Shown piece by piece: positions 12,163-25,137 of a DNA stretch of 37,099 nt (the first letter of the stretch is position 1; every line of letters starts with the position of its first letter). The position numbers and the translations under genes are program-made. A model generated the notes under the pieces. The model did no database searches, was not told where the DNA came from, and worked only from the letters and a program-made list of their open reading frames with translations. Location of the stretch: positions 1 to 37,099 of IMG/VR virus record IMGVR_UViG_3300043823_000514, one strand, 5' to 3'. Source of the DNA: a virus.

Positions 12163-15100
12163 ATGGCAGATCAGTCGATAACCCAGCTACCGATTGCTTA
12201 TACCTTAACAGGGGATGAGCAAGTACCAGTAGTACAACGCGGAGTTACTAAACAAGCGTCTGTGTCACAGATCGCTAATGCTGCGTCGCCGGGTAAATTG
12301 ATTACCAATATGACGTATACTCCGTCAAACGGAGATTTAAATGTCTATTACAGTGACGGCTCAACTCAAGTTTTAGGCCCTATTTCTGGCTGGTCTGGCT
12401 ACAGTGGTTATTCTGGTATCTCTGGTATCTCTGGTATCTCTGGTTATTCTGGTATCTCTGGTTATTCTGGTATCTCAGGATACAGTGGGTCAGGTGTTTC
12501 AGGATTCTCAGGATATTCTGGTAAGTCAGGATATAGTGGTATCGGCACATCTGGCTTTTCCGGCACATCTGGCTTTTCCGGTTATTCTGGTATATCTGGC
12601 TATTCTGGTATATCTGGCTATTCTGGTATCTCTGGTATCTCTGGATACAGTGGTTCTGGTGTCTCCGGCTACAGCGGTTCTGGTATCTCTGGCTACAGTG
12701 GTTTTTCTGGCTATAGCGGTATCTCTGGTTACAGTGGCTTCTCTGGCATCTCTGGTTGGTCTGGTATTTCTGGCTATAGTGGTATTTCTGGTTACTCTGG
12801 TATCTCTGGCTACAGTGGTTCTGGTATCTCTGGCTATAGTGGTTTTTCCGGTATCTCTGGCTATAGTGGTATCTCTGGCTATAGTGGTATCTCTGGCTAT
12901 AGTGGTATCTCTGGCTACAGTGGTTCTGGTATCTCTGGCTACAGTGGTTTTTCTGGTATTTCTGGCTACAGTGGTATTTCTGGCTTCTCTGGCATTTCTG
13001 GTTATAGTGGCTTCTCTGGCATTTCTGGTTACAGTGGCTTCTCTGGCATTTCTGGTTACAGTGGCTCAGGTATCTCTGGCTATAGTGGCTCAGGTATCTC
13101 TGGCTATAGTGGCTTCTCTGGTATCTCTGGCTATAGTGGCTTCTCTGGTATCTCTGGTTACAGCGGTGTCTCTGGCTATAGCGGATTCTCTGGCATCTCT
13201 GGCTATAGTGGCTTCTCCGGTATCTCTGGCTATAGTGGCTTCTCTGGTATCTCTGGCTATAGTGGCTCAGGTATCTCTGGTTACAGTGGCTTCTCTGGTA
13301 TCTCTGGCTTCTCTGGCTACAGTGGCTTCTCTGGTATCTCTGGCTACAGTGGCTTCTCTGGCATCTCTGGCTACAGCGGTATCTCTGGCATCTCTGGCTA
13401 TAGTGGCTTTTCTGGTATCTCTGGCTATAGTGGCTTTTCTGGTATCTCTGGCTACAGTGGCTTCTCCGGTATCTCTGGCTACAGTGGCTTCTCTGGTATC
13501 TCTGGCTACAGTGGCTTCTCTGGTATCTCCGGATATAGTGGCTTCTCTGGTATCTCTGGCTACAGCAGTTTTTCCGGCATTTCAGGATACTCTGGAATTA
13601 GCGGATATTCAGGTTTTTCTGGAATAAGTGGTTATAGTGGATCTGGTGTAAGTGGATACTCTGGTTACAGCGGCGAATCTGGATATAGCGGTGAAACTGG
13701 TTCTTCTTTTTCTTTTGAAGGTACTGTAGCGACCTACGCAGATTTACCGCTGGTAGGTAACACTAATGGCGATGCCTATGTTACTGCAGATACAGGACAT
13801 CTTTGGATTTGGGACGCCGATGATAGCGAATGGGAGGACGCTGGTTTATTTTTAGGTGAGAGTGGTTACAGTGGATATTCTGGCACTAGCGGCTATAGTG
13901 GTTCAGGTATCTCTGGCTACAGTGGCTTCTCAGGTATCTCTGGCTTCTCTGGTTACTCAGGTAAATCTGGTTACTCAGGATACAGCGGCTCTGGTATTTC
14001 TGGTTATAGTGGCTCTGGTGTGTCTGGTTTCTCGGGCTACTCTGGCACATCTGGTTATTCAGGATATAGTGGTTTCTCAGGTATCTCAGGACAAAATGGT
14101 CCTATGGGAACCTCTGGCTACTCAGGATATTCTGGTGCATCCGGAATAAGTGGCTATAGTGGATACTCTGGCATCTCTGGTTGGTCTGGTATTTCCGGAT
14201 ACTCTGGTATCTCTGGTTGGTCTGGTATCTCTGGTTACAGTGGATATTCTGGTATCTCCGGCTGGTCTGGTATCTCTGGCTACAGTGGCTTCTCTGGTAT
14301 CTCTGGCTACAGTGGCTTCTCTGGTATCTCGGGCTACTCTGGTTCTGGTGTATCTGGCTATAGTGGTTCAGGTATCTCTGGCTACAGTGGCTTCTCTGGT
14401 ATCTCTGGCTTCTCTGGTATTTCCGGCTGGTCTGGTTATTCAGGATATAGCGGTGTATCTGGTTGGTCTGGTATCTCAGGCTACAGCGGTTTCTCTGGCA
14501 TCTCTGGATATTCAGGTTCGGGTGTAAGCGGATACTCAGGTTACAGTGGTATCTCAGGCTTCTCTGGCTATTCTGGTATCAGTGGATACTCAGGATACTC
14601 TAGCTTCTCAGGTTACTCAGGCATTTCAGGATTCTCTGGCTACTCTGGACAAACTGGTGCTGGTGGTGTAGTTAGCTATTGGGGTGCATTTTATGATACC
14701 ACCAACCAAACGGCAGCTAATACAACGACAGCCTACGTAGTTAATATTGGAAGTACATCTGGTAACAATGGAATCAGCATTGTTTCTGGAAACCAAATAA
14801 CCCACAGCAGTGCTGGAACATACAATTTACAGTATTCAATTCAGTTTGTAAATACAGATTCAAACTCAGATGTTGTTAACGTATGGCTTAGAAAAAATGG
14901 CGCTGATGTAGCAGATTCTAATAGTGAATATTCAGTACCCGGAACATCGCACGGCGGGTCTGGAGCATTGATTGCTGCAGTTAATTATGTAATCAGCTTA
15001 AACGCTGGGGACTATTTACAGCTAGTTTGGTCAACTACTAACACAACAGTATCTATCGCCACAATCCCAGCGGGGACAAGCCCAACAGTGCCTGTTGCGC

Positions 15101-18100
15101 CAGGTGTAATTGTTACATCTACACAAGTAACTTACACCCAGTCTGGATATTCAGGATTCTCTGGATATTCAGGATTCTCTGGCTACAGCGGCATATCAGG
15201 TTACTCAGGATTCTCTGGTATTTCAGGTTACTCAGGATTCTCCGGTATCTCTGGATACTCTGGCACCTCTGGTTACAGCGGCTCAGGTATCTCTGGATTC
15301 TCCGGTATCTCTGGCTGGTCTGGTATTTCTGGCTGGTCTGGTTACTCAGGTTACAGTGGAATATCTGGCTGGTCTGGTATCTCTGGTTACTCTGGTTCTG
15401 GTGTATCTGGCTACTCTGGTTCAGGTATCTCTGGCTACAGCGGTACTTCAGGTTATAGTGGTTCTGGTATCTCAGGCTTCTCCGGTATCTCCGGCTACAG
15501 TGGTATCTCTGGCTACAGTGGTATCTCAGGTTTTTCTGGTTACAGCGGATCCGGTATTTCTGGTTACAGTGGTTCAGGTATATCTGGTTATAGCGGTTAC
15601 AGCGGCATATCGGGCTTTAGCGGCGTTTCTGGCTATTCTGGTACCTCTGGATACTCTGGCTCTGGTTTAAGCGGCTACAGCGGTTTTAGTGGTATCTCAG
15701 GCTATTCTGGAATAGTTGGTCAATCTGGCTACTCAGGATACTCTGGATGGTCTGGTATTTCTGGTTATAGTGGTATCTCTGGTGCAAATGGCCCTTCTAC
15801 CGCAATCAACGCAACCAACAGTACTTCTAATACTAACTACTACCTAATTGGTGTTCCAGCTTTAGGTTCCAATCAGACACCATACGGTTTTAGTACAGAT
15901 GGTTTGACCTTCAACGGTTCAACACAAGTATTTACAGCTCCGTATCATGTTGCTACAGGATCAATTGCTAGTGCGGCTACAACAGGAGCATTTAGCTACG
16001 GCACTCTCGGATATTCTGATACCAACATCTTTGCTAGCTTTGCTACCAGCGTAAATACCTATGCACAGATGGTGCTCCAGAACAACAATACTGGCACACA
16101 GGCTTCTGCCGACTTTATTGTATCTGGTAGCAGCGGCACAGCGTCAACTTACTACGGTGACTTTGGCACTAACGGAGCGGGATTTAGCCAAGCAGGTTCA
16201 TTTGGTTTACCAAACGCGGTATATGTATACAGTTCTAATGGCGACTTAGTACTCGGTTCCATCACAGCCAATGCCATACGCATGGTTGTGAGCAACAATA
16301 CTACCGACGCGATGACCATCGACAGCGGTGGTGGTGTGTCATTCAACGGTTCTTACGGAACCAGCGGTTACATCCTGTCAACCAACGGATCTGGCCATGC
16401 TCCAACATGGATCAACGGCATCGGATTATCCGGTTACTCAGGCTATAGCGGCACATCCGGTTGGTCTGGTATTTCCGGCTATAGCGGCATAAACGGATCT
16501 ACTGGTACATCAGGTTATTCTGGATATAGCGGCATTTCTGGATTTTCTGGCATTTCTGGCTGGTCTGGCTATAGTGGCATTTCAGGCTGGTCTGGTATTT
16601 CAGGCTATAGTGGTTCTGGTATCTCTGGCTGGTCTGGTATTTCTGGCTGGTCTGGTATTTCTGGTTACAGCGGATCAAGCGAAACATGGCTTGGTGTATG
16701 GTCGAGTTCAACAGCTTATGTTGTAAGAAATATTGTTTCGTATAATGGCTCTTCTTACTACTGTATTTTGGCCAACACAAACCAAGTACCAACCAATACA
16801 ACATATTGGATTTTGGTAGCACAATCAGGCTACTCTGGCTATAGTGGTACTAACGGCTCCACCGGTACATCCGGCTACTCTGGCTATAGTGGCACTAACG
16901 GATCCACCGGTACATCTGGTTACTCTGGCTATAGTGGTACTAACGGTGCTACAGGCACATCTGGCTACTCTGGCTATAGTGGTACTAACGGTTCTACTGG
17001 TGCTACTGGTACATCTGGTTACTCTGGCTATAGTGGTACTAACGGTTCTACTGGTGCTACTGGTACATCTGGTTACTCTGGCTATAGTGGTACTAACGGT
17101 TCCACTGGTACATCTGGTTACTCTGGTTATAGTGGTTCCACTGGTGCTACAGGTACATCTGGCTACTCTGGCTATAGTGGCGCAAATGGTCCCTCTACTG
17201 CGATTAACGCAGCCAACAGTACCACTAATGCTGCCTACTATCTAGTTTCTGTTCCAGCGTTGGGTTCTAATCAAACGCCATACGGGTTCAGTACATCAGC
17301 GTTAACTTATAATGGATCTACTGGTGTCTTAAGTTCACCAACATTGAATACAACTTCTGTAGTTCAAGAAGGATCAACAGGACAGTTCTATTCAACTATC
17401 CATAATGTAAACAGTTCTTCCTATAATGCTTCTTTAGCATTTATCTCAACAAATGGTACGACTGCTACACCAGCAGGAACTACATTGGGGAACACAGACT
17501 TCTGGGGCTATACAGGTTCAGCCGTTGCTTATGCTGGTAGTATTGACTTTAATGCTTTGGCTTCTACCTATGGTGGCACTACTTGGACAACATCAAGCAC
17601 CCCAAGTGAATTAGCGTTTAACGTTACAGCGCCAGGTTCCACTACTCCAGCGTATGTTGGTGTTGTGACCTACACAGGTATTAATAGTTGCGCTATTGGT
17701 GCTACAGTGGCATCAACTGGTGTGTTTACTACCGCTCAAATCACCAGTCTTGGTGTAGGTACCGCAGCGTCAGGAACAACTGGCGAGATTCGTGCAACCA
17801 ATAACGTAACTGCGTACTACTCTGACGAGCGTTTAAAAACAAAAACAGGTAACATCGAAAACGCATTGGATAAACTGTGCGCTATTGAAACCATGCTGTA
17901 CCACGCTAATGAAACAGCGGTAGCACTTGGTTACGACGCCTCAGTTCAAGAAGTTGGTGTAACAGCCCAGTCTGTACAAAAAGTACAACCTGAAGTTGTA
18001 GTTCCAGCTCCAATTGATGATAAGTACTTAACTGTTCGTTATGAACGTTTAATTCCACTAATCATCGAAGCTATTAAAGAATTACGCGCTGAAATTAAAA

Positions 18101-18105
18101 AATAA
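12163..18105 (+). CDS. Giant collagen-like tail fibre with S74 chaperone domain
   Basis: 1980 residues. An N-terminal domain (1-75; ITQLPIAYTLTGDEQVPVVQ) probably anchors to the virion. Gly-X-Ser repeats (X = Tyr, Ile, Phe, Trp, Val) fill about 76-515, 564-831, 993-1208, 1422-1505 and 1556-1676. Between them sit a small fibre module (515-563; DAYVTADTGHLWIWD), a C1q-like beta domain (832-992; VVSYWGAFYDTTNQTA), a beta domain at 1209-1421, a CBM5/12-like module (1506-1555; WLGVWSSSTAYVVRN) and another fibre domain. The C-terminus (about 1866-1980) is a Peptidase_S74 intramolecular chaperone, with YYSDERLK placing catalytic Ser1887 and Lys1892. That domain trimerises the fibre and cuts itself off. 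Domain 1209-1421 shares its start with the later domain at about 1677. The shaft has essentially no proline, unlike true collagen. Confidence 0.9.
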   Translation: MADQSITQLPIAYTLTGDEQVPVVQRGVTKQASVSQIANAASPGKLITNMTYTPSNGDLNVYYSDGSTQVLGPISGWSGYSGYSGISGISGISGYSGISGYSGISGYSGSGVSGFSGYSGKSGYSGIGTSGFSGTSGFSGYSGISGYSGISGYSGISGISGYSGSGVSGYSGSGISGYSGFSGYSGISGYSGFSGISGWSGISGYSGISGYSGISGYSGSGISGYSGFSGISGYSGISGYSGISGYSGISGYSGSGISGYSGFSGISGYSGISGFSGISGYSGFSGISGYSGFSGISGYSGSGISGYSGSGISGYSGFSGISGYSGFSGISGYSGVSGYSGFSGISGYSGFSGISGYSGFSGISGYSGSGISGYSGFSGISGFSGYSGFSGISGYSGFSGISGYSGISGISGYSGFSGISGYSGFSGISGYSGFSGISGYSGFSGISGYSGFSGISGYSGFSGISGYSSFSGISGYSGISGYSGFSGISGYSGSGVSGYSGYSGESGYSGETGSSFSFEGTVATYADLPLVGNTNGDAYVTADTGHLWIWDADDSEWEDAGLFLGESGYSGYSGTSGYSGSGISGYSGFSGISGFSGYSGKSGYSGYSGSGISGYSGSGVSGFSGYSGTSGYSGYSGFSGISGQNGPMGTSGYSGYSGASGISGYSGYSGISGWSGISGYSGISGWSGISGYSGYSGISGWSGISGYSGFSGISGYSGFSGISGYSGSGVSGYSGSGISGYSGFSGISGFSGISGWSGYSGYSGVSGWSGISGYSGFSGISGYSGSGVSGYSGYSGISGFSGYSGISGYSGYSSFSGYSGISGFSGYSGQTGAGGVVSYWGAFYDTTNQTAANTTTAYVVNIGSTSGNNGISIVSGNQITHSSAGTYNLQYSIQFVNTDSNSDVVNVWLRKNGADVADSNSEYSVPGTSHGGSGALIAAVNYVISLNAGDYLQLVWSTTNTTVSIATIPAGTSPTVPVAPGVIVTSTQVTYTQSGYSGFSGYSGFSGYSGISGYSGFSGISGYSGFSGISGYSGTSGYSGSGISGFSGISGWSGISGWSGYSGYSGISGWSGISGYSGSGVSGYSGSGISGYSGTSGYSGSGISGFSGISGYSGISGYSGISGFSGYSGSGISGYSGSGISGYSGYSGISGFSGVSGYSGTSGYSGSGLSGYSGFSGISGYSGIVGQSGYSGYSGWSGISGYSGISGANGPSTAINATNSTSNTNYYLIGVPALGSNQTPYGFSTDGLTFNGSTQVFTAPYHVATGSIASAATTGAFSYGTLGYSDTNIFASFATSVNTYAQMVLQNNNTGTQASADFIVSGSSGTASTYYGDFGTNGAGFSQAGSFGLPNAVYVYSSNGDLVLGSITANAIRMVVSNNTTDAMTIDSGGGVSFNGSYGTSGYILSTNGSGHAPTWINGIGLSGYSGYSGTSGWSGISGYSGINGSTGTSGYSGYSGISGFSGISGWSGYSGISGWSGISGYSGSGISGWSGISGWSGISGYSGSSETWLGVWSSSTAYVVRNIVSYNGSSYYCILANTNQVPTNTTYWILVAQSGYSGYSGTNGSTGTSGYSGYSGTNGSTGTSGYSGYSGTNGATGTSGYSGYSGTNGSTGATGTSGYSGYSGTNGSTGATGTSGYSGYSGTNGSTGTSGYSGYSGSTGATGTSGYSGYSGANGPSTAINAANSTTNAAYYLVSVPALGSNQTPYGFSTSALTYNGSTGVLSSPTLNTTSVVQEGSTGQFYSTIHNVNSSSYNASLAFISTNGTTATPAGTTLGNTDFWGYTGSAVAYAGSIDFNALASTYGGTTWTTSSTPSELAFNVTAPGSTTPAYVGVVTYTGINSCAIGATVASTGVFTTAQITSLGVGTAASGTTGEIRATNNVTAYYSDERLKTKTGNIENALDKLCAIETMLYHANETAVALGYDASVQEVGVTAQSVQKVQPEVVVPAPIDDKYLTVRYERLIPLIIEAIKELRAEIKK
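12388..17190 (+). repeat. Short in-frame repeats coding for the Gly-X-Ser fibre shaft
   Basis: Near-identical 9-bp units of the type TCTGGCTACAGTGGT recur in five blocks: about 12388-13706, 13852-14656, 15139-15786, 16426-16677 and 16828-17190. Synonymous changes separate many copies (TAC/TAT, AGT/AGC/TCT), so some blocks are old, while long runs around 13080-13560 are nearly identical and look recently expanded. Copy number here may vary between strains or be misassembled. Confidence 0.9.
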
Positions 18106-18147: not shown

Positions 18148-19392
18148 ATGAAATATAGTATTGTAATACCGACTTACAATCATTGCGACGATTTACTTAA
18201 ACCGTGCATTGATTCAATCCTGAAATATACTGATATGACCGATGTAGAATTGGTGATATCGTATAACGGATGCACAGATGAAACCAAGCACTATGTAACA
18301 TACCTGACAAGGATGTTCGAAAATAAGGGTCTTGGAGACAATATTAAATACTATGCTTCAGATAAACCATTGGGCTTTATTGGAGCAACAAACGCCGGTA
18401 TCAAAGTAGCATCAGGCGATAAAATTGTTTTACTGAACAATGACACTGTTTTGCTTGACCAACCTAAGAACAAATGGTTGGAGCGATTGGATGTAGCAGA
18501 TGTAACTGGTGTATTGAGTCAGTACTCAAACATCACACGAAGGAACTTTTTCGTATTCTTCTGCGCTATGATTGACCGAAAAGTGATTGACGCTATCGGT
18601 CTATTAGACGAAGATTTTGACATGGGCGGCTGTGACGATATTGATTATTGTTTCCGCGCACAAGAAGCAGGATTTAAGCTGGTAGATGTGGGCTATAAAG
18701 GCGACTTCCCAATCTACCATATTGCTGAAGCAACAGTGCATCAGCCAGAACTTATTGAAGCATACAAAAAAGCGTTTTCTGGTAACGAATACAAGCTAGC
18801 TAAGAAACACAATATGGAGCATTATAAGTACATGCTCTCTAATAACTACGAGCGAGCTGTATTCCTTAAAGGCGACGGAGTTTTCCCACGCGAGACACAG
18901 CGCTATGAATGGGCGGCTAAGAATGTATTGCCAGGGTCTGTATTAGAGATTGGGTGTTCTACCGGTTACGGTTATCAGTTCCTTAACTCACCAGCGTATA
19001 TGGGTTTAGATTACGACCCAATCATCGTTGAGGTGGCTAAAGAACAACAGTGGTCTGATGATGCAACATTCTACCAAGCCGACATCAATAACTACGAACT
19101 TGGCACATATACCAACATCATCGCGTTTGAAGTGATTGAGCACCTTGATAATGGTCTAGAGATCGTTGAAAAACTCAAACAGCACTGCAAACGCTTATTG
19201 ATTACTGTACCCCATAATGAACCTAAAGGTTTCTGGGGCGAGCATCACAAGTTGCATGGTTTGACTGAGAAGGACTTCCCCGGCTTTAAGTTTTCGTACA
19301 TCGACTATGACGGAAACATAACTGATACTTTGAAACCAGCTAGTGATACCAATCCAGCTAATTTGATGATTTGCAGGTGGGACAATGAGTAA
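18148..19392 (+). CDS. GT2 glycosyltransferase fused to SAM methyltransferase
   Basis: 414 residues in two domains. Residues 1-230 are a family 2 glycosyltransferase: YSIVIPTYNHCDDL at the N-terminus, GFIGATNAGIKVASG, and LLNNDTVLL, whose NND (97-99) takes the place of the metal-binding DXD. Residues about 250-400 form a class I methyltransferase, with motif I VLEIGCSTGYGYQF near 265-278, an acidic GLDYDP, and FEVIEHLDNG. It would transfer a sugar from a nucleotide donor and methylate an acceptor, perhaps the same glycan. Target unknown: the neighbouring fibre, host surface glycans, or nucleotides. It lies between two Ser/Tyr-rich fibre genes and overlaps the next gene by 8 bases. TTTAGGA lies 8 bases before the ATG. 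Confidence 0.85.
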   Translation: MKYSIVIPTYNHCDDLLKPCIDSILKYTDMTDVELVISYNGCTDETKHYVTYLTRMFENKGLGDNIKYYASDKPLGFIGATNAGIKVASGDKIVLLNNDTVLLDQPKNKWLERLDVADVTGVLSQYSNITRRNFFVFFCAMIDRKVIDAIGLLDEDFDMGGCDDIDYCFRAQEAGFKLVDVGYKGDFPIYHIAEATVHQPELIEAYKKAFSGNEYKLAKKHNMEHYKYMLSNNYERAVFLKGDGVFPRETQRYEWAAKNVLPGSVLEIGCSTGYGYQFLNSPAYMGLDYDPIIVEVAKEQQWSDDATFYQADINNYELGTYTNIIAFEVIEHLDNGLEIVEKLKQHCKRLLITVPHNEPKGFWGEHHKLHGLTEKDFPGFKFSYIDYDGNITDTLKPASDTNPANLMICRWDNE

Positions 19393-20353
19393 AATTCTTT
19401 GTTCCATCGCAACAAGAGGTAGATATTTTACAACGTTACCCATTGTATTAAACGCTGTAATAAACCAAACACGCGCACCAGATAAAATCATTATCTTTGA
19501 TGATAATGACGAATTTAAAGATATGCGTACTGAAATGATCTACCAGTACTTTTTTCAGATGTTGGATCTTAAAGGTATTGAGTGGGCGTGGCAACCAGCT
19601 CCTAAAAAAGGACAACACCACATTCACCAAATCGCTAACTGGTCCAATTTTGATTGGGTCTGGCGCGTGGATGATGATGCAGTTCCAGAGCCAAATGTTT
19701 TAGAAACACTAGCTAGTTACATTGAAGACGGTGTGGGTGCAATTGGAGGTGCTGTTTTAACACCACCAAATATCCCCAAAACTGACGCGGTAACCGGCCT
19801 TGTTGACAATATTTATTCAGAACCAAACATCCAATGGGGGATGATAAATGCTGCAAAACCTGTGGAGCATTTACACTGCACTTTCCTGTATCGTGCTAAC
19901 GTGTACAATTATAATCTTGGTTTATCTAGGGTAGCACACAGAGAAGAAACTCTGTTTACCTACGGTTTACATAGAAATGGATACAAGATTCTAGTTGTGC
20001 CTAATGCTGTAACATGGCATATGAAAAACCCAGAGGGCGGAATTCGTAGTGAAACAAATAAAGAAATGTATACACATGATGAGAACATTTTTAGAAATCA
20101 CTTACGATTCAGGGACAGCACAATTGTAATTTTAAATTGTGGCAAAGGTGACCACATTGTTTTTAGTAAAATTTTGCCTGAAATAAAGAACCCTTTTGTT
20201 TTCAGCTGTTACCAAGACATTATTGAAGGACAATCTATAGCAGAAGCGCATAGACTATTTGGTGACCTAGATAACTGGGATATTTACCGAAAAATGTCTC
20301 AATGGAAATGGCAAGGCAGTTTAGAAGACGCATATAGGAAGTTTTATCTATGA
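19385..20353 (+). CDS. Glycosyltransferase (GT-A fold) with GT9-like C-terminal half domain
   Basis: 322 residues. Residues 1-235 look like a GT-A glycosyltransferase: KILCSIATRGRYFTTLPIVL, an IIIFDDND segment, and WVWRVDDDAVPEP, whose VDDD (about 95-98) is the metal-binding DXD. Residues about 243-322 (STIVILNCGKGDHIVFSKIL) resemble the N-terminal Rossmann half of family 9 heptosyltransferases, with the G-x-GD loop. The matching C-terminal half appears as the next ORF, which overlaps by ATGA. The pair may work as a split GT9 enzyme attached to a GT-A domain. The GT-A call is firm; the GT9 reading is weaker. Confidence 0.8.
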   Translation: MSKILCSIATRGRYFTTLPIVLNAVINQTRAPDKIIIFDDNDEFKDMRTEMIYQYFFQMLDLKGIEWAWQPAPKKGQHHIHQIANWSNFDWVWRVDDDAVPEPNVLETLASYIEDGVGAIGGAVLTPPNIPKTDAVTGLVDNIYSEPNIQWGMINAAKPVEHLHCTFLYRANVYNYNLGLSRVAHREETLFTYGLHRNGYKILVVPNAVTWHMKNPEGGIRSETNKEMYTHDENIFRNHLRFRDSTIVILNCGKGDHIVFSKILPEIKNPFVFSCYQDIIEGQSIAEAHRLFGDLDNWDIYRKMSQWKWQGSLEDAYRKFYL

Positions 20354-20784
20354 TAATTATTGCCCCATATGCCCAAAAATTAAGAACAGGTAAAGAAAAC
20401 CCAAAAAACTATCCTTACTGGGAAACACTAATTGAAAAGATTGGTGAGCCCGTGATTCAAGTTGGTGTAGAAGGAGAAAAGCAACTTGTCGAAGATTTTA
20501 GAAAAAATCTATCTGTCGACGAACTGTGTGCCCTACTTAAAGAGTGCCGAACTTGGATAGGAGTTGATAGTTTTTTCCAACATCTTGCGTGGCGCGAGAA
20601 TAAAAAAGGGATTGTATTATGGGGACCATCAGACCCTGTAATATTCGGACACCCCGAAAACATAAATTTATTAAAAGATCGCTCGCACTTAGTGGAAAAT
20701 CAATTCATTTGGTGGGAAGCACATGAACATCGAAATGATCGATTTGTTAAGCCACAAGTCGTTTTAGAATATTTAAAGGAATAA
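20350..20784 (+). CDS. GT9 (heptosyltransferase-like) C-terminal half
   Basis: 144 residues, less than half the length of a normal GT9 enzyme (about 330-350). It matches the donor-binding half: IIIAPYAQKLRTGKENPKNY at the start, then LCALLKECRTWIGVDSFFQH, LAWRENKKGIVLWGPSDP and FGHPENINLL. The WIGVDS/FFQHLA stretch corresponds to the GT9 block (usually V-x-x-D-T/S...H-x-A) that holds ADP-heptose. The start ATG overlaps the stop of the previous ORF, whose C-terminus resembles the missing N-terminal half. A split two-subunit enzyme, or a decayed gene broken by a frameshift, are both possible. It is in frame and intact as a small protein. Confidence 0.65.
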   Translation: MIIIAPYAQKLRTGKENPKNYPYWETLIEKIGEPVIQVGVEGEKQLVEDFRKNLSVDELCALLKECRTWIGVDSFFQHLAWRENKKGIVLWGPSDPVIFGHPENINLLKDRSHLVENQFIWWEAHEHRNDRFVKPQVVLEYLKE

Positions 20785-20787
20785 AAC

Positions 20788-22653
20788 ATGGCAGCTAGCG
20801 GCTATACGCCCATTAGTCTTTACTATACAGCAACGTCTGGCACTGTTCCAACTGCAGGTAATTTATTAAATGGTGAATTGGCTATCAATATCACTGACGG
20901 TAAATTATATTTTAAGAATGGCAGTGGATCAGTAACTTTATTGGCTTCTGCAGCCGGTGCAGTTGCTGCGACTAATATTTCTGGCGGAACATCGGGGCAA
21001 ATACCCTACCAAAGTGCGGCTAGCACAACTACTTTTATAACCGCACCGTCAGTATCTGGTACATATCTCGGATATAACGGCTCAAGTTTTTACTGGGCTT
21101 CGACAACAGGCGCCTCTGGATATAGTGGTTTCTCAGGATATTCTGGAGGAACTGGCACAAACGGAACTTCTGGATACAGCGGCTTCTCAGGCATATCCGG
21201 ATACAGCGGATACAGTAGTTTTTCAGGATATAGCGGTATTTCTGGATTTAGCGGTATTTCTGGATTCTCAGGCAGCAACGGAGCTTCTGGATACAGCGGA
21301 TTCTCAGGCATCTCTGGATTCTCAGGCATCTCTGGATTCTCAGGCATCTCTGGATATAGTGGATCAGGAGTAAGCGGTTACAGCGGTACATCTGGATATT
21401 CTGGTTCAGGAATATCCGGCTACAGTGGGTATTCTGGTATTAACGGCTCTGGTGGTACATCTGGAACTTCTGGATACAGTGGTATCTCTGGCTATAGTGG
21501 CATATCTGGTTTCTCTGGTTACAGTGGTTCTGGTATATCTGGCTACAGTGGATCAGGTATATCTGGATATAGCGGCTACAGCGGTTTAGGATTATCGGGC
21601 TATAGTGGTACCTCTGGCTATAGTGGTACCTCTGGCTATAGTGGTACCTCTGGCTATAGCGGATCTGGTATTTCAGGATATTCTGGATTTAGCGGCATTT
21701 CTGGGTATTCAGGAGTTACTCCAACTTCTGTTCCAAATATCAGTGGTGGTGCGGTAGGTTCGTTGGTTTATCAATCTGCAGCAAATACAACTGCATTCTT
21801 ATCCAATGTCCCTGGTGATGTGTTAGTAGCTGGAGCAGCAACTCCAGCCTATGTGGCGCAATCTACATTAAGCGTTGGAACTGCGACAAACATAGCTGGC
21901 GGTACATCAGGACAAATTCATGTTCAAACTGCTACAGGAACAACAGGATTTATTGGAGCGGCTTCTTCCAATAACACCATGCTGGTTTACACAACTGGTG
22001 GCGGGTATGTTTGGGATTCTGTAAATGCTTTCTCACCAACTTTGTCAGGAACAGGAGCAACAGGAACTTGGGGTATTAGTATCACAGGTAATGCTGCTAC
22101 AGCTTCAGCTGTTACCAATATTTCTGGTGGTGCTGTAGGATCCTTAGTTTACCAATCTGGTGTTGGAACAACAGCTTTCTTGGCAAACGTTTCTGGTTCT
22201 GTTTTAGTTGGCGGTGTTACAACTCCAGCTTATGCAACACAGGCTTCCCTGTCTGTAGGAAGCGCCACAACAGCCTCAAACGTAGCAGGGGGAGGTACAA
22301 AAGAAGTAGTTTACCAAACTGCTGCTGGCACAACTGGATTTATTGCTGCTCCAACAGCAGCAGCTGAAGCTATAGTGTATGACGGCACCAACATTGGTTG
22401 GTCTGCAATTAGTGGATACGCCCCAACGTTATCAGGAACCGGAGCTTACGGAACTTGGGCAATTAACGTCACAGGAAGCGCAGCAAGTGCAACTACTGCA
22501 TCAACTGCGGCGGCTTTTCAATCCACTAATTTTACAATTACCGAAAGTGGTGGTAAACTGTATTTTGCATATCAGGGAACACAAATCGCATCTTTAGATT
22601 CCTCTGGCAACTTTACATCACTTGCTAACGTAACTGCATACGGAACACCATAA
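20788..22653 (+). CDS. Second collagen-like tail fibre
   Basis: 621 residues. The N-terminal module (1-60; GYTPISLYYTATSGTVPTAG then GELAINITDGKLYFKNG) is a common phage-fibre start. Gly-X-Ser shaft repeats occupy about 109-310. From about 315 come several related 40-50 residue beta modules (ISGGAVGSLVYQSA twice; AGGTSGQIHVQTATG; AGGGTKEVVYQTAAG; TLSGTGATGTWGISITGNAA twice). The C-terminus (YFAYQGTQIASLDSSGNFTS) resembles the ends of fibres that have lost or never had an S74 chaperone; no SDERLK motif is present. It starts four bases after the GT9-like ORF and ends in a TAATG overlap with the glycine-rich gene, so it belongs to one tail-fibre unit. Confidence 0.85.
   Translation: MAASGYTPISLYYTATSGTVPTAGNLLNGELAINITDGKLYFKNGSGSVTLLASAAGAVAATNISGGTSGQIPYQSAASTTTFITAPSVSGTYLGYNGSSFYWASTTGASGYSGFSGYSGGTGTNGTSGYSGFSGISGYSGYSSFSGYSGISGFSGISGFSGSNGASGYSGFSGISGFSGISGFSGISGYSGSGVSGYSGTSGYSGSGISGYSGYSGINGSGGTSGTSGYSGISGYSGISGFSGYSGSGISGYSGSGISGYSGYSGLGLSGYSGTSGYSGTSGYSGTSGYSGSGISGYSGFSGISGYSGVTPTSVPNISGGAVGSLVYQSAANTTAFLSNVPGDVLVAGAATPAYVAQSTLSVGTATNIAGGTSGQIHVQTATGTTGFIGAASSNNTMLVYTTGGGYVWDSVNAFSPTLSGTGATGTWGISITGNAATASAVTNISGGAVGSLVYQSGVGTTAFLANVSGSVLVGGVTTPAYATQASLSVGSATTASNVAGGGTKEVVYQTAAGTTGFIAAPTAAAEAIVYDGTNIGWSAISGYAPTLSGTGAYGTWAINVTGSAASATTASTAAAFQSTNFTITESGGKLYFAYQGTQIASLDSSGNFTSLANVTAYGTP
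21112..21717 (+). repeat. Gly-X-Ser coding repeats in the second fibre
   Basis: About 200 codons of the same repeat family as in the large fibre gene, including three identical tandem units of TATAGTGGTACCTCTGGC around 21602-21655. Sharing this sequence gives the two fibre genes long homologous stretches for recombination. Confidence 0.85.
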
Positions 22654-23576
22654 TGACAATGAATTCTAGCGGGGCAATCAGCCTCGGAGGAACCACAGCG
22701 GGGCAGTCTATTGAGATAGAAAATGGCGGCCCCGGCACAGCACAAATCAGCCTTAATGATACTGCAGTAAGAACCCTAGCTGGCGTTCCTAGTGGTGCTA
22801 TTATTATGCCGACAAACTTTTATGGTAAGTCAAACATTGTCCAATTGAATCTTACTATTTCTGCTAACACACAAAACTACGATGTGTATGTTAACGCATC
22901 TGCAAGCCCATTGTATGTGGCAGGTAAAACTGCAGTTACCGTAACAATCAACCCCGGTATTGCTGTAGGTAGCTCTAGTGTCCCAGCGTATGCAATGCTT
23001 GTTCCTTCAGCATTCAACCCAGCCGATACAGTCACGATTGTGAATAACGGCTATATTGTAGGTGCTGGCGGTGCTGGCGGAACAGGTGGTGCAGGCCATC
23101 CTGGTACTGGTGGAGGTGCTGGTGCACCCGGAGGAGCTGGAGGTAATGCACTGTATGTTGCTAGAGCCACAACCGTTACTAATAATGGTACCGTAGGTGC
23201 CGGGGGTGGTGGCGGTGGCGGAGGAGGTGTTTTTGCTAATTACGCCGGTGGTGGCGGTGGTGGTGGCGCAGGATATAACACTGGTGGCGCTGGCGCCGCT
23301 GGGCCAACCCCACCTGGTTTACCAACAGCTTCCCCAGGTTCTGCAGGGTCGTTAACCACGGGTGGAAGTGGAGGTGCGCCCGCTGGTCCTACAGGCGGCC
23401 CTGGCGGCACAGGAGGAACTTTAGGGGCTGTAGGAACCGCCGGGACAGCGGGACATGGATCACCACCCGCAGATAATAAACCTGGTGGTACTGGAGGCCC
23501 CTCTGCCAACTACATAACTGGAAACCCATTTGTTACGTGGCCTGTAACAGGAACCCGTCTTGGCGGCGTAGCTTAA
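22653..23576 (+). CDS. Glycine-rich adhesin-like tail protein
   Basis: 307 residues. The N-terminus (1-65; SGAISLGGTTAGQSIEIENG, ISLNDTAVRTLAGVPSGAII) is a module seen at the start of many aquatic phage tail proteins. A beta region at 65-135 follows. Residues 135-290 are dominated by Gly-rich runs (GAGGAGGTGGAGHPGTGGGA; VGAGGGGGGGGGVFANYAGG) with Pro and Ala, close in style to the polyglycine sandwich of T4-like gp38 receptor-binding adhesins. This suggests a receptor-binding tip bound to one of the fibres. It is translationally coupled to the preceding fibre by TAATG. Assignment as adhesin is inference from composition. Confidence 0.7.
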   Translation: MTMNSSGAISLGGTTAGQSIEIENGGPGTAQISLNDTAVRTLAGVPSGAIIMPTNFYGKSNIVQLNLTISANTQNYDVYVNASASPLYVAGKTAVTVTINPGIAVGSSSVPAYAMLVPSAFNPADTVTIVNNGYIVGAGGAGGTGGAGHPGTGGGAGAPGGAGGNALYVARATTVTNNGTVGAGGGGGGGGGVFANYAGGGGGGGAGYNTGGAGAAGPTPPGLPTASPGSAGSLTTGGSGGAPAGPTGGPGGTGGTLGAVGTAGTAGHGSPPADNKPGGTGGPSANYITGNPFVTWPVTGTRLGGVA

Positions 23577-23592
23577 TTTTAAAGGAAAAACA

Positions 23593-23922
23593 ATGAACAC
23601 TATTTATATGAAAATAACAGGATTTGACGAAACATCAAATTCACTATTAGTATCTTTTGCATCAGATACCACGAAATCTCAAGATCCATCACAATATCAA
23701 TCTGTTGCTTTCCAGCCATTTACAATGTGGCCTAGTGTTACCGACCCTACACAAATCCCGCAATTAATTGCAACAGCTGGTATGTGGCAGGCACAGCAAC
23801 AACAAATTCAAGAATCTTTTGTTGCAAACCCAGCAAATATTGCTGCGTATCAAGCAATGGTTGGACAAACTATGAGTTTTCCTGTATCATCATTAGTAAC
23901 CCCCGCAACAACTGGAGCTTAG
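23593..23922 (+). CDS. Small hypothetical protein of the fibre unit
   Basis: 109 residues. The N-terminal half is beta-prone (NTIYMKITGFDETSNSLLVS; PFTMWPSVTDPTQ). The middle has a Gln-rich helix (GMWQAQQQQIQESFVANPAN). No membrane segment. AAAGGA lies upstream. Its place behind the adhesin-like gene is where small fibre-assembly chaperones often sit, but no Tfa/gp38-type motif is visible, so the function is unknown. Confidence 0.6.
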   Translation: MNTIYMKITGFDETSNSLLVSFASDTTKSQDPSQYQSVAFQPFTMWPSVTDPTQIPQLIATAGMWQAQQQQIQESFVANPANIAAYQAMVGQTMSFPVSSLVTPATTGA

Positions 23923-23947
23923 GGGATAACTAATCTAAGGAATTAAA

Positions 23948-24535
23948 ATGTCTACTCTATTAGACCAACATGGTGCAATATATGTTAAAGGTTTGATACC
24001 AACGGAATTTTGTCAATATTTTACGCATGCATTAATGCGAAAATCAGATCAAAAATTACCCGGAGATGACCAAGTACCCAGTGCGAAAGCAATTATTGAC
24101 CATGAAATTATGTTTGATACATTGCTAGAGCGTCTGTGGCCTATTGTTGAAAACTTAGCTGGTGAAGAGCTTTTGCCAACCTATGCGTATTCAAGGTTAT
24201 ACACTAACGGAGATGAACTTTTAAAACATAAAGATCGTGATGCTTGCGAAGTAAGTGTAACTTTACAATTAGGTAGATCGCACAATTATTCTTGGCCCAT
24301 TTATGCTGGTAATACGCGTTTTGATCTCGCTGAAGGTGATGGAGTTCTATATTTAGGTTGTGATGTAGAGCATTGGCGCGAACCATGTAATGGTCCTGAA
24401 GGATATTATTCTGGACAAGTATTTTTACATTATGTAAAAAAGAATGGTAACAGATCCAGTGAATACGCGGACACAACAAAGCGCAGTAATACTCATTTTG
24501 TAAAAAATAGAACTGTAGTAATGGAGTCAAAATAA
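23948..24535 (+). CDS. 2OG-Fe(II) oxygenase family protein (first)
   Basis: 195 residues. The order of motifs fits the 2-oxoglutarate/Fe(II) dioxygenase double-stranded beta helix: YSRLYTNGDELLKHKDRD, giving H94-x-D96 as the first two iron ligands, then SVTLQLG, a GDGVLYLGCDVEHWRE segment with H142 as the likely distal ligand, and VFLHYVKK at the end. Such enzymes hydroxylate proteins, nucleotides or small molecules. The gene follows the fibre genes and is coupled to a second oxygenase (ATG four bases beyond the stop overlap), so a virion or fibre protein, or a host molecule, may be the substrate. AAGGAA lies upstream of the start. Confidence 0.8.
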   Translation: MSTLLDQHGAIYVKGLIPTEFCQYFTHALMRKSDQKLPGDDQVPSAKAIIDHEIMFDTLLERLWPIVENLAGEELLPTYAYSRLYTNGDELLKHKDRDACEVSVTLQLGRSHNYSWPIYAGNTRFDLAEGDGVLYLGCDVEHWREPCNGPEGYYSGQVFLHYVKKNGNRSSEYADTTKRSNTHFVKNRTVVMESK

Positions 24536-25137
24536 TGTTATATCCAATTGAACCGAAAGCAATTCCTGGTCGTGATACCCATGCTTGGGCGGACGGTATT
24601 TTTACTAATGATGAATTAACTAAAATTCTATCACTGCCACAATGGAATCAATCGGAAACAGCATCTGTTGGAGGATCTTCAAATCAAGGATCTGTAAATA
24701 ACAACATTAGACGATCAAATGTGGCTTGGATATACCCAACACCAGAAACCATGTTTATTTGGGAAAAAGTATCTGCTGCAATAGCAGACATAAATAGTAG
24801 ATTTTTTAGATTTGATTTAACGGGTTGTTATGAACCTTTTCAACTAGGTATTTATAGCGGAGATATTCAAGGGCATTATAACTGGCATACAGATGCTGGT
24901 ATGTATGATGTTCATGTGCCCCGTAAATTATCCATGACGCTAATGCTTTCTGATCCTTCAGAATACGTTGGTGGTGAATTACAACTTAAAACAGAATCTG
25001 ATGAAGCTATTACAGTTCAAACACCAAAAGGTAGAGCATGGTTTTTCCCATCCTACACATTGCATAGAGTAGCACCCGTAACAAAAGGCGTACGCCGTTC
25101 ATTGGTAATCTGGGTCGGTGGGCCCGCTTTTAAATAA
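24535..25137 (+). CDS. 2OG-Fe(II) oxygenase (PiuC/prolyl-hydroxylase-like)
   Basis: 200 residues with a clear active site: HYNWHTDAGMYD gives H118-T-D120, and SYTLHRVAPVTKGVRRSL gives the distal H177 with R187 or R188 to hold 2-oxoglutarate. GGELQL and the TPKGRAWFFPS segment are typical of the PiuC/P4H-like group. The catalytic set looks intact. It overlaps the previous oxygenase stop by one base, and both precede the lysis genes. The substrate is unknown. Proline hydroxylation of the neighbouring fibres is unlikely because their shafts have almost no proline. Confidence 0.88.
   Translation: MLYPIEPKAIPGRDTHAWADGIFTNDELTKILSLPQWNQSETASVGGSSNQGSVNNNIRRSNVAWIYPTPETMFIWEKVSAAIADINSRFFRFDLTGCYEPFQLGIYSGDIQGHYNWHTDAGMYDVHVPRKLSMTLMLSDPSEYVGGELQLKTESDEAITVQTPKGRAWFFPSYTLHRVAPVTKGVRRSLVIWVGGPAFK

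Follow-up and report, generated by a model that had tools for sequence, protein, structure and literature searches.

A glycosyltransferase cassette that accompanies Gly-X-Ser collagen-like fibres in diverse phages and probably glycosylates them

Phage-encoded glycosyltransferases (GTs) that modify virion proteins have been described in mycobacteriophages, where, as far as the work of Freeman et al. 2023 is summarized in PMC12619734, the C-termini of capsid and tail-tube proteins are the targets. BclA of the Bacillus exosporium is a collagen-like glycoprotein whose glycan ends in an O-methylated sugar (PMC8968730; PMC6222408), for which a hydration role of the glycans has been proposed (PMC8968730). 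Mimivirus hydroxylates and glycosylates its own collagen (PMC8968730), and the Ser-rich repeat adhesins Fap1 and GspB are encoded together with dedicated cytoplasmic GTs (PMC5207161). Here we analyze a locus in a 37,099-base freshwater phage record (IMGVR_UViG_3300043823_000514, taken at its full length and hereafter called the window), which carries terminase, portal and capsid genes and whose portal has its closest relative among public phage records at 52% identity. At 18148-20784 it contains a tightly coupled cassette (a GT2-methyltransferase, a GT-A enzyme with the N-half of a GT9, and the GT9 C-half) flanked by two nearly Pro-free fibres with Gly-X-Ser (GXS) repeats. This cassette probably encodes soluble enzymes dedicated to O-glycosylation of the flanking fibres; its acceptor, donor and chemistry we infer. 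The genes concerned are:

12163..18105, + strand: fibre 1, with an N-terminal domain of ~80 amino acids (aa), a multi-block Gly-X-Ser collagen-like shaft (PF01391, 1e-124) and a C-terminal S74 chaperone domain (PF13884, 6e-9)
18148..19392, + strand: GT2 (aa 1-~215; PF00535, 2e-16) fused to an S-adenosylmethionine (SAM) methyltransferase (MT; aa ~222-414; PF13489, 3e-8)
19385..20353, + strand: GT-A glycosyltransferase (VDDD motif; PF00535, 9e-9) with a C-terminal GT9 N-half (GxGDH)
20350..20784, + strand: C-terminal half of a GT9 (heptosyltransferase-like), 144 aa (PF01075, 1.2e-6)
20788..22653, + strand: fibre 2, a shorter GXS fibre directly 3' of the cassette (56 triplets in runs)

All genes that a first-pass annotation had placed at 18148-25137 were verified there on the + strand. 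The GT2-MT gene starts 42 nucleotides (nt) after the end of fibre 1; it overlaps the GT-A gene by 8 nt, which in turn overlaps the GT9 C-half gene by 4 nt, and fibre 2 starts only 3 nt further on. Compared by description, the likeness to the mycobacteriophage system lies in phage-encoded GTs for virion proteins, predicted here from the genes; the summarized work concerns capsid and tail-tube C-termini, whereas in the window the GTs accompany a collagen-like shaft of GXS repeats, the GT9 is split and a methyltransferase is fused to GT2. BclA is likewise collagen-like, and Y of its Gly-X-Y triplets is often a hydroxy amino acid, but it is a protein of bacterial spores, its repeats contain Pro, and the gene organization differs. 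Fap1 and GspB resemble the window in that a Ser-rich repeat protein is encoded alongside its own cytoplasmic GTs, and the GT2-MT profile matches GalT1 (5hea, 3e-10); however, they have no collagen repeat, and no GtfA/GtfB or accessory Sec system was recognized in the window. Mimivirus also modifies its own collagen-like protein, but it is a eukaryotic virus with hydroxylysine-type chemistry, whereas in the window no oxygenase is linked to the GXS shaft. TibC, which has a GT9-like fold, glycosylates an adhesin. It matches (4rap) the GT9 C-half of the window only, and weakly (E 0.33), and the phage GT9 differs in being split and joined to a GT-A enzyme. A literature search, restricted to open-licence papers and hence weak evidence of novelty, found no glycosylated phage collagen-like fibres.

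The cassette and the shaft type occur together well beyond the window. Among the 80 nearest GT2-MT relatives (52-81% identity), the GT-A gene adjoins on the same strand in all 80, and the GT9 C-half is present in all but five that are truncated at a contig edge. GXS repeats are visible in 69 of these 80 stretches, most of the remainder ending near the cassette, and all 24 cassette records of at least 20 kb contain them. Two records considered as cassette carriers without GXS (L056 and L076) were rejected as such: both have GXS fibres elsewhere. When we counted distinct cassette loci (102), 26 were flanked on both sides, 24 of them with a GXS fibre on the same strand. For the reverse test the DNA was scanned for a GXS pattern, blind to the enzymes, and records with at least 20 XSG units were taken as informative (n=40); GT-A was present in 29 of them. 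In podoviruses related to the window by portal, we compared GXS-positive records reaching past the fibre with GXS-negative records reaching at least 12 kb beyond the portal, and GT-A was found in 5/5 against 0/26 (one-sided p about 6e-6, with descent ignored). Four further GXS-positive records of this clade without GT-A end inside the fibre and were not counted as they are uninformative; the empty search in the GXS-negative set is informative, since the same query matched in the positive set. Co-occurrence in related genomes, proposed as a check in the first-pass annotation, thus holds for the GTs in all three comparisons (24/24, 29/40, and 5/5 against 0/26). The GTs are genetically tied to a structural gene, as in a phage virion glycosylation system.

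The same picture is obtained at one orthologous locus. The siblings L479 and L482 share the N-domain of fibre 1 (64-66% identity), which there is followed by a short Pro-containing GPQGPTGPTGP stretch and immediately by the next fibre gene, a homologue of fibre 2 in its N-domain; both the GXS shaft and the cassette are absent. Shaft and cassette are gained or lost as a pair. The same N-domain type occurs in L481 and MW202545, again with neither GXS shaft nor cassette.

The cassette itself is modular. Its commonest form, as in the window, has GT2-MT, GTA-GT9N and GT9C as three genes (60 of the 102 distinct loci); other separate-gene forms consist of MT, GTA-GT9N and GT9C, or of GTA-GT9N and GT9C alone directly after the fibre. 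Fused forms are MT-GTA-GT9N, GT2-GTA-GT9N and GT2-MT-GTA-GT9N, each with a separate GT9C, and in L300 and L183 a single chain (GTA-GT9N-GT9C) joins the GT-A enzyme to a complete GT9. Genes that are fused in some genomes and separate in others are classical evidence of joint action, and the parts of the cassette can therefore be expected to act together. As judged from these arrangements, GTA-GT9 is the constant core (with GT-A as its most constant member), and GT2 and MT are dispensable accessories. The methylated sugar caps proposed in the first-pass annotation are plausible as an accessory step, some cassettes having no methyltransferase. In one branch (L077 7303-7794, L078 4215-4706 and L081 12987-13478) a second small methyltransferase-like gene separates GTA from GT9C, and GT2-MT is extended by ~250 aa. 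Some larger phage records (L076 3101-9993; L476 6128-13627; L477 1-3036) hold the cassette inside a bigger cluster of GT-like genes, some of whose open reading frames (ORFs) carry three or four GT2 domains.

The only annotated relative, and the only isolate, is Methylophilaceae phage P19250A (KX815270), which, given its tail genes (tape measure, protein J), is a siphovirus, unlike the window. Its P19250A_0023 (KX815270 21390-24995; L082 10345-13950), annotated as tail length tape-measure protein, turns out to be a GXS fibre, 225 of whose 281 triplets carry Ser at Y, and the genes 0024-0026, annotated as hypothetical, are MT, GTA-GT9N and GT9C.

Domain and motif evidence places the three enzymes in their classes. 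PF00535 scores 60.7 bits on GT2 and 36 bits on GT-A (cut-off 23.3), the VDDD motif is invariant, and a GT-A fold is obtained with AlphaFold2 (AF2) and Foldseek. Invariant residues of the GT-A protein are D39-N41, D96-D98, G253, G255, D256 and H257; its C-terminal ~80 aa carry the GT9-type N-terminal signature GxGDH, invariant in 33 sequences. The AF2 model of this protein has a pLDDT (per-residue confidence) of 93.1 and a pTM (global fold confidence) of 0.90, and its Foldseek matches (RmlT, TarP, TarS, the collagen galactosyltransferase COLGALT1, GalNAc-T) point to the fold, not to the acceptor. A PDB profile search with GT-A gave nothing significant, and a scan of genome contigs gave no bacterial relative and hence no homologue in a prophage or host from which its role could be judged. 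The SAM methyltransferase is recognized by PF13489 (33.9 bits, cut-off 27) and by invariant E267, G269, C270, G273 and G275 of VLEIGCSTGYG. On the GT9 C-half, PF01075 scores 28.5 bits (cut-off 22) over profile positions 172-219 only, and profile matches include, besides TibC, the C-domain of heptosyltransferase I (2h1f, E 0.004). The GT9 is thus predicted to be a split enzyme, with its N-half on the end of the GT-A protein and its C-half in a separate gene. None of the three proteins has a transmembrane segment (maximum 19-residue hydropathy 1.58 for GT2-MT, 1.11 and 0.69), and all three genes are under purifying selection (median ratio of nonsynonymous to synonymous substitution rates, dN/dS, about 0.07-0.09 among close relatives). 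O-antigen conversion of the Gtr type, which needs membrane-anchored transferases and a flippase partner, was considered and rejected for proteins with no such segment.

The shaft offers a candidate acceptor. Fibre 1, collagen-like in its uninterrupted Gly-X-Y triplets, has 356 of these in runs of at least 5, with Ser at Y in 311; X is variable (mostly Tyr, Ile and Phe), and Pro is not among the main residues at either position. Its Y-position serines are encoded by 223 TCN and 88 AGY codons, and because both classes are used, it is the Ser residue itself that is kept, not only a DNA repeat. In fibre 2 Ser occupies Y in 47 of the triplets in runs, and over 147 cassette-linked fibres (some from overlapping loci) it does so in 87% of 19,806 triplets. 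GXS fibres without a cassette have a similar share (median 88%), so that Ser at Y is not by itself proof of an acceptor. Tyr, which had also been put forward as a glycosylation site, finds no support, the near-invariant residue being Ser at Y and X being variable. Fibre 1 is presumably the main substrate and fibre 2 the second.

Under the proposed mechanism, one transferase would attach a host-derived nucleotide sugar to the Y-position Ser of Gly-X-Ser in the cytoplasm, before or during trimerization. The first or further sugars would be attached by a GT9-like enzyme, put together from the N-half that ends the GT-A protein and the separately encoded C-half, and by the GT2 domain in those cassettes that have one; the methyltransferase would cap a sugar hydroxyl; any of the transferases could act first. 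Modification in the cytoplasm during assembly fits, as the enzymes are soluble and their genes share one packed unit with the fibre gene. The probable effect would be a sugar sheath that stabilizes and solubilizes the nearly proline-free collagen-like shaft and/or alters what the fibre binds to; the proposed role of BclA glycans in hydration suggests, by analogy, that sugars at Y could stabilize a triple helix that is nearly free of Pro. A wider idea, which we hold only tentatively, is that of a widespread phage collagen O-glycosylation, in which a bifunctional GT-A/GT9-half and a complementary GT9 half glycosylate hundreds of Y-serines of nearly Pro-free Gly-X-Ser shafts, often with methyl caps, replacing proline hydroxylation as the viral triple-helix stabilizer.

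Several observations weigh against a dedicated fibre-glycosylating cassette. In the blind scan 11 of the 40 GXS records have no GT-A, some of them with very pure shafts (96-97% Ser at Y), from which it follows that the shaft can exist without the cassette; some GT2 match occurs in 7 of the 11, but several are large genomes, so this says little. In several jumbo-size records a distance of 10-30 kb separates GT-A from the GXS match. The records are fragmentary and not independent by descent, which the p-values ignore. Homology of the cassette enzymes gives no specificity as to the predicted glycan, donor or acceptor, and since the fold relatives of GT-A include wall-teichoic-acid transferases, the acceptor may belong to the cell envelope. 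Finally, the proposal that the two GT9 halves assemble is based on motifs and on their fusion in nature, given that the AF2 model of the fused GTA-GT9N-GT9C (pTM 0.61) had only GT-A and no GT-B among the Foldseek matches listed; a search for relatives of this single chain returned only itself. Near the GXS fibre of some records with no GT cassette we observed radical-SAM-like ORFs with Cys-rich N-termini of the CxxxCxxC type (L462 1458-3122; L469 4013-6707), for which another fibre-modifying chemistry is conceivable.

The alternative that survives best is that the enzymes modify glycans on the surface of the host (for instance for superinfection exclusion) and lie near fibres because host-recognition islands gather such genes. 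This is the usual reading of GTs in host-recognition regions of aquatic phages (PMC7029224), and TarP, TarS and RmlT among the fold matches as well as the 11 cassette-less GXS records are in line with it. Nonetheless, the link is to one shaft type and not to fibres generally, related podoviruses having fibres at the same locus with no cassette, and the cassette includes no flippase-like gene. The first-pass annotation had named this its main alternative; it is weakened by the lack of membrane segments and by the recurrence of the unit in virion types that are unrelated, and we regard it as unlikely, though worth keeping in mind. It might also be argued that shaft and cassette, gained or lost together at one locus, simply travel as one DNA block and are functionally unlinked. 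Such passive hitch-hiking is improbable: the link holds down to ~52% protein identity and in podovirus-like, siphovirus (P19250A) and jumbo-size records alike, with the modules re-fused and under strong purifying selection.

A further alternative concerns the genes downstream of fibre 2:

22653..23576, + strand: Gly-rich fibre protein, a unit separate from the GT cassette (phrog_11439, phrog_2056 tail fibre)
23593..23922, + strand: conserved 109-aa protein of the Gly-rich-fibre/oxygenase unit
23948..24535, + strand: 2-oxoglutarate (2OG)-type oxygenase A (H94xD96...H142; phrog_2954, 1e-43; no Pfam match)
24535..25137, + strand: 2OG-Fe(II) oxygenase B (H118xD120...H177...R187; PF13640, 1e-15; phrog_61, 2e-34)

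In its full version, the first-pass annotation had read all of 18148-25137 as one fibre-decoration pathway, with the oxygenases hydroxylating the GXS shaft before glycosylation; it omitted the first two genes of this list, which lie between fibre 2 and the oxygenases. The enzyme class is clear, with H94, D96 and H142 invariant in oxygenase A (HxD...H) and H118, D120, H177 and R187 in oxygenase B (the HxD...H...R of 2OG-Fe(II) enzymes). All genes stand in one packed unit, and one other record (L014/L301) has the same gene order, but this is the only one of 71 oxygenase B relatives with a GXS fibre or GTs nearby; the usual partners are the 109-aa protein (in 59 of the 71), the Gly-rich fibre (56) and oxygenase A (49). 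Most cassette loci have no such oxygenase, and Pro is not a main shaft residue. In a few other records (L091, L115, L126 and L165) oxygenase-like genes do occur near GXS fibres, so a role at the shaft is possible in some phages. For the window, a single pathway is very improbable: the GT part of the proposed decoration stands, being specific to the GXS shaft by co-occurrence, whereas the oxygenases failed the same check and were rejected as dedicated shaft hydroxylases. As oxygenase B relatives keep Gly-rich-fibre partners and not GXS fibres, the window joins two fibre units, and both oxygenases are probably neighbours outside the GXS system, tied to the Gly-rich fibre. The Gly-rich fibre, 109-aa protein and two oxygenases (22653-25137) recur in many viral contigs as a conserved unit of their own and may be a second system for fibre modification. 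The family of oxygenase A is called 'ferrochelatase' in PHROGs 2954 and 3531, a label that, given the invariant HxD...H and the context, is probably a misannotation. That the GTs glycosylate phage DNA against host nucleases, a known phage GT role also proposed for other freshwater phages (PMC10202952), has next to no likelihood for a cassette that is embedded between fibre genes and tracks fibre type across phages.

Glycosyltransferases in the host-recognition regions of aquatic phages are usually taken as modifiers of the host envelope or of DNA (PMC7029224, PMC10202952). In the present case a defined cassette keeps to a single type of fibre in virions that are unrelated, so that decoration of the fibres by the phage itself is probable for a large class of uncultured freshwater phages. 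In addition, the cassette is a naturally occurring example of a GT9 that is split in the window but has its halves joined in other genomes and, if our reading is true, its soluble enzymes could serve to glycosylate collagen-like polymers. With P19250A one carrier has already been isolated together with its host, which makes the proposal directly testable; if it holds, receptor binding, the stability of fibres and the evolution of resistance would have to be read differently in these phages.

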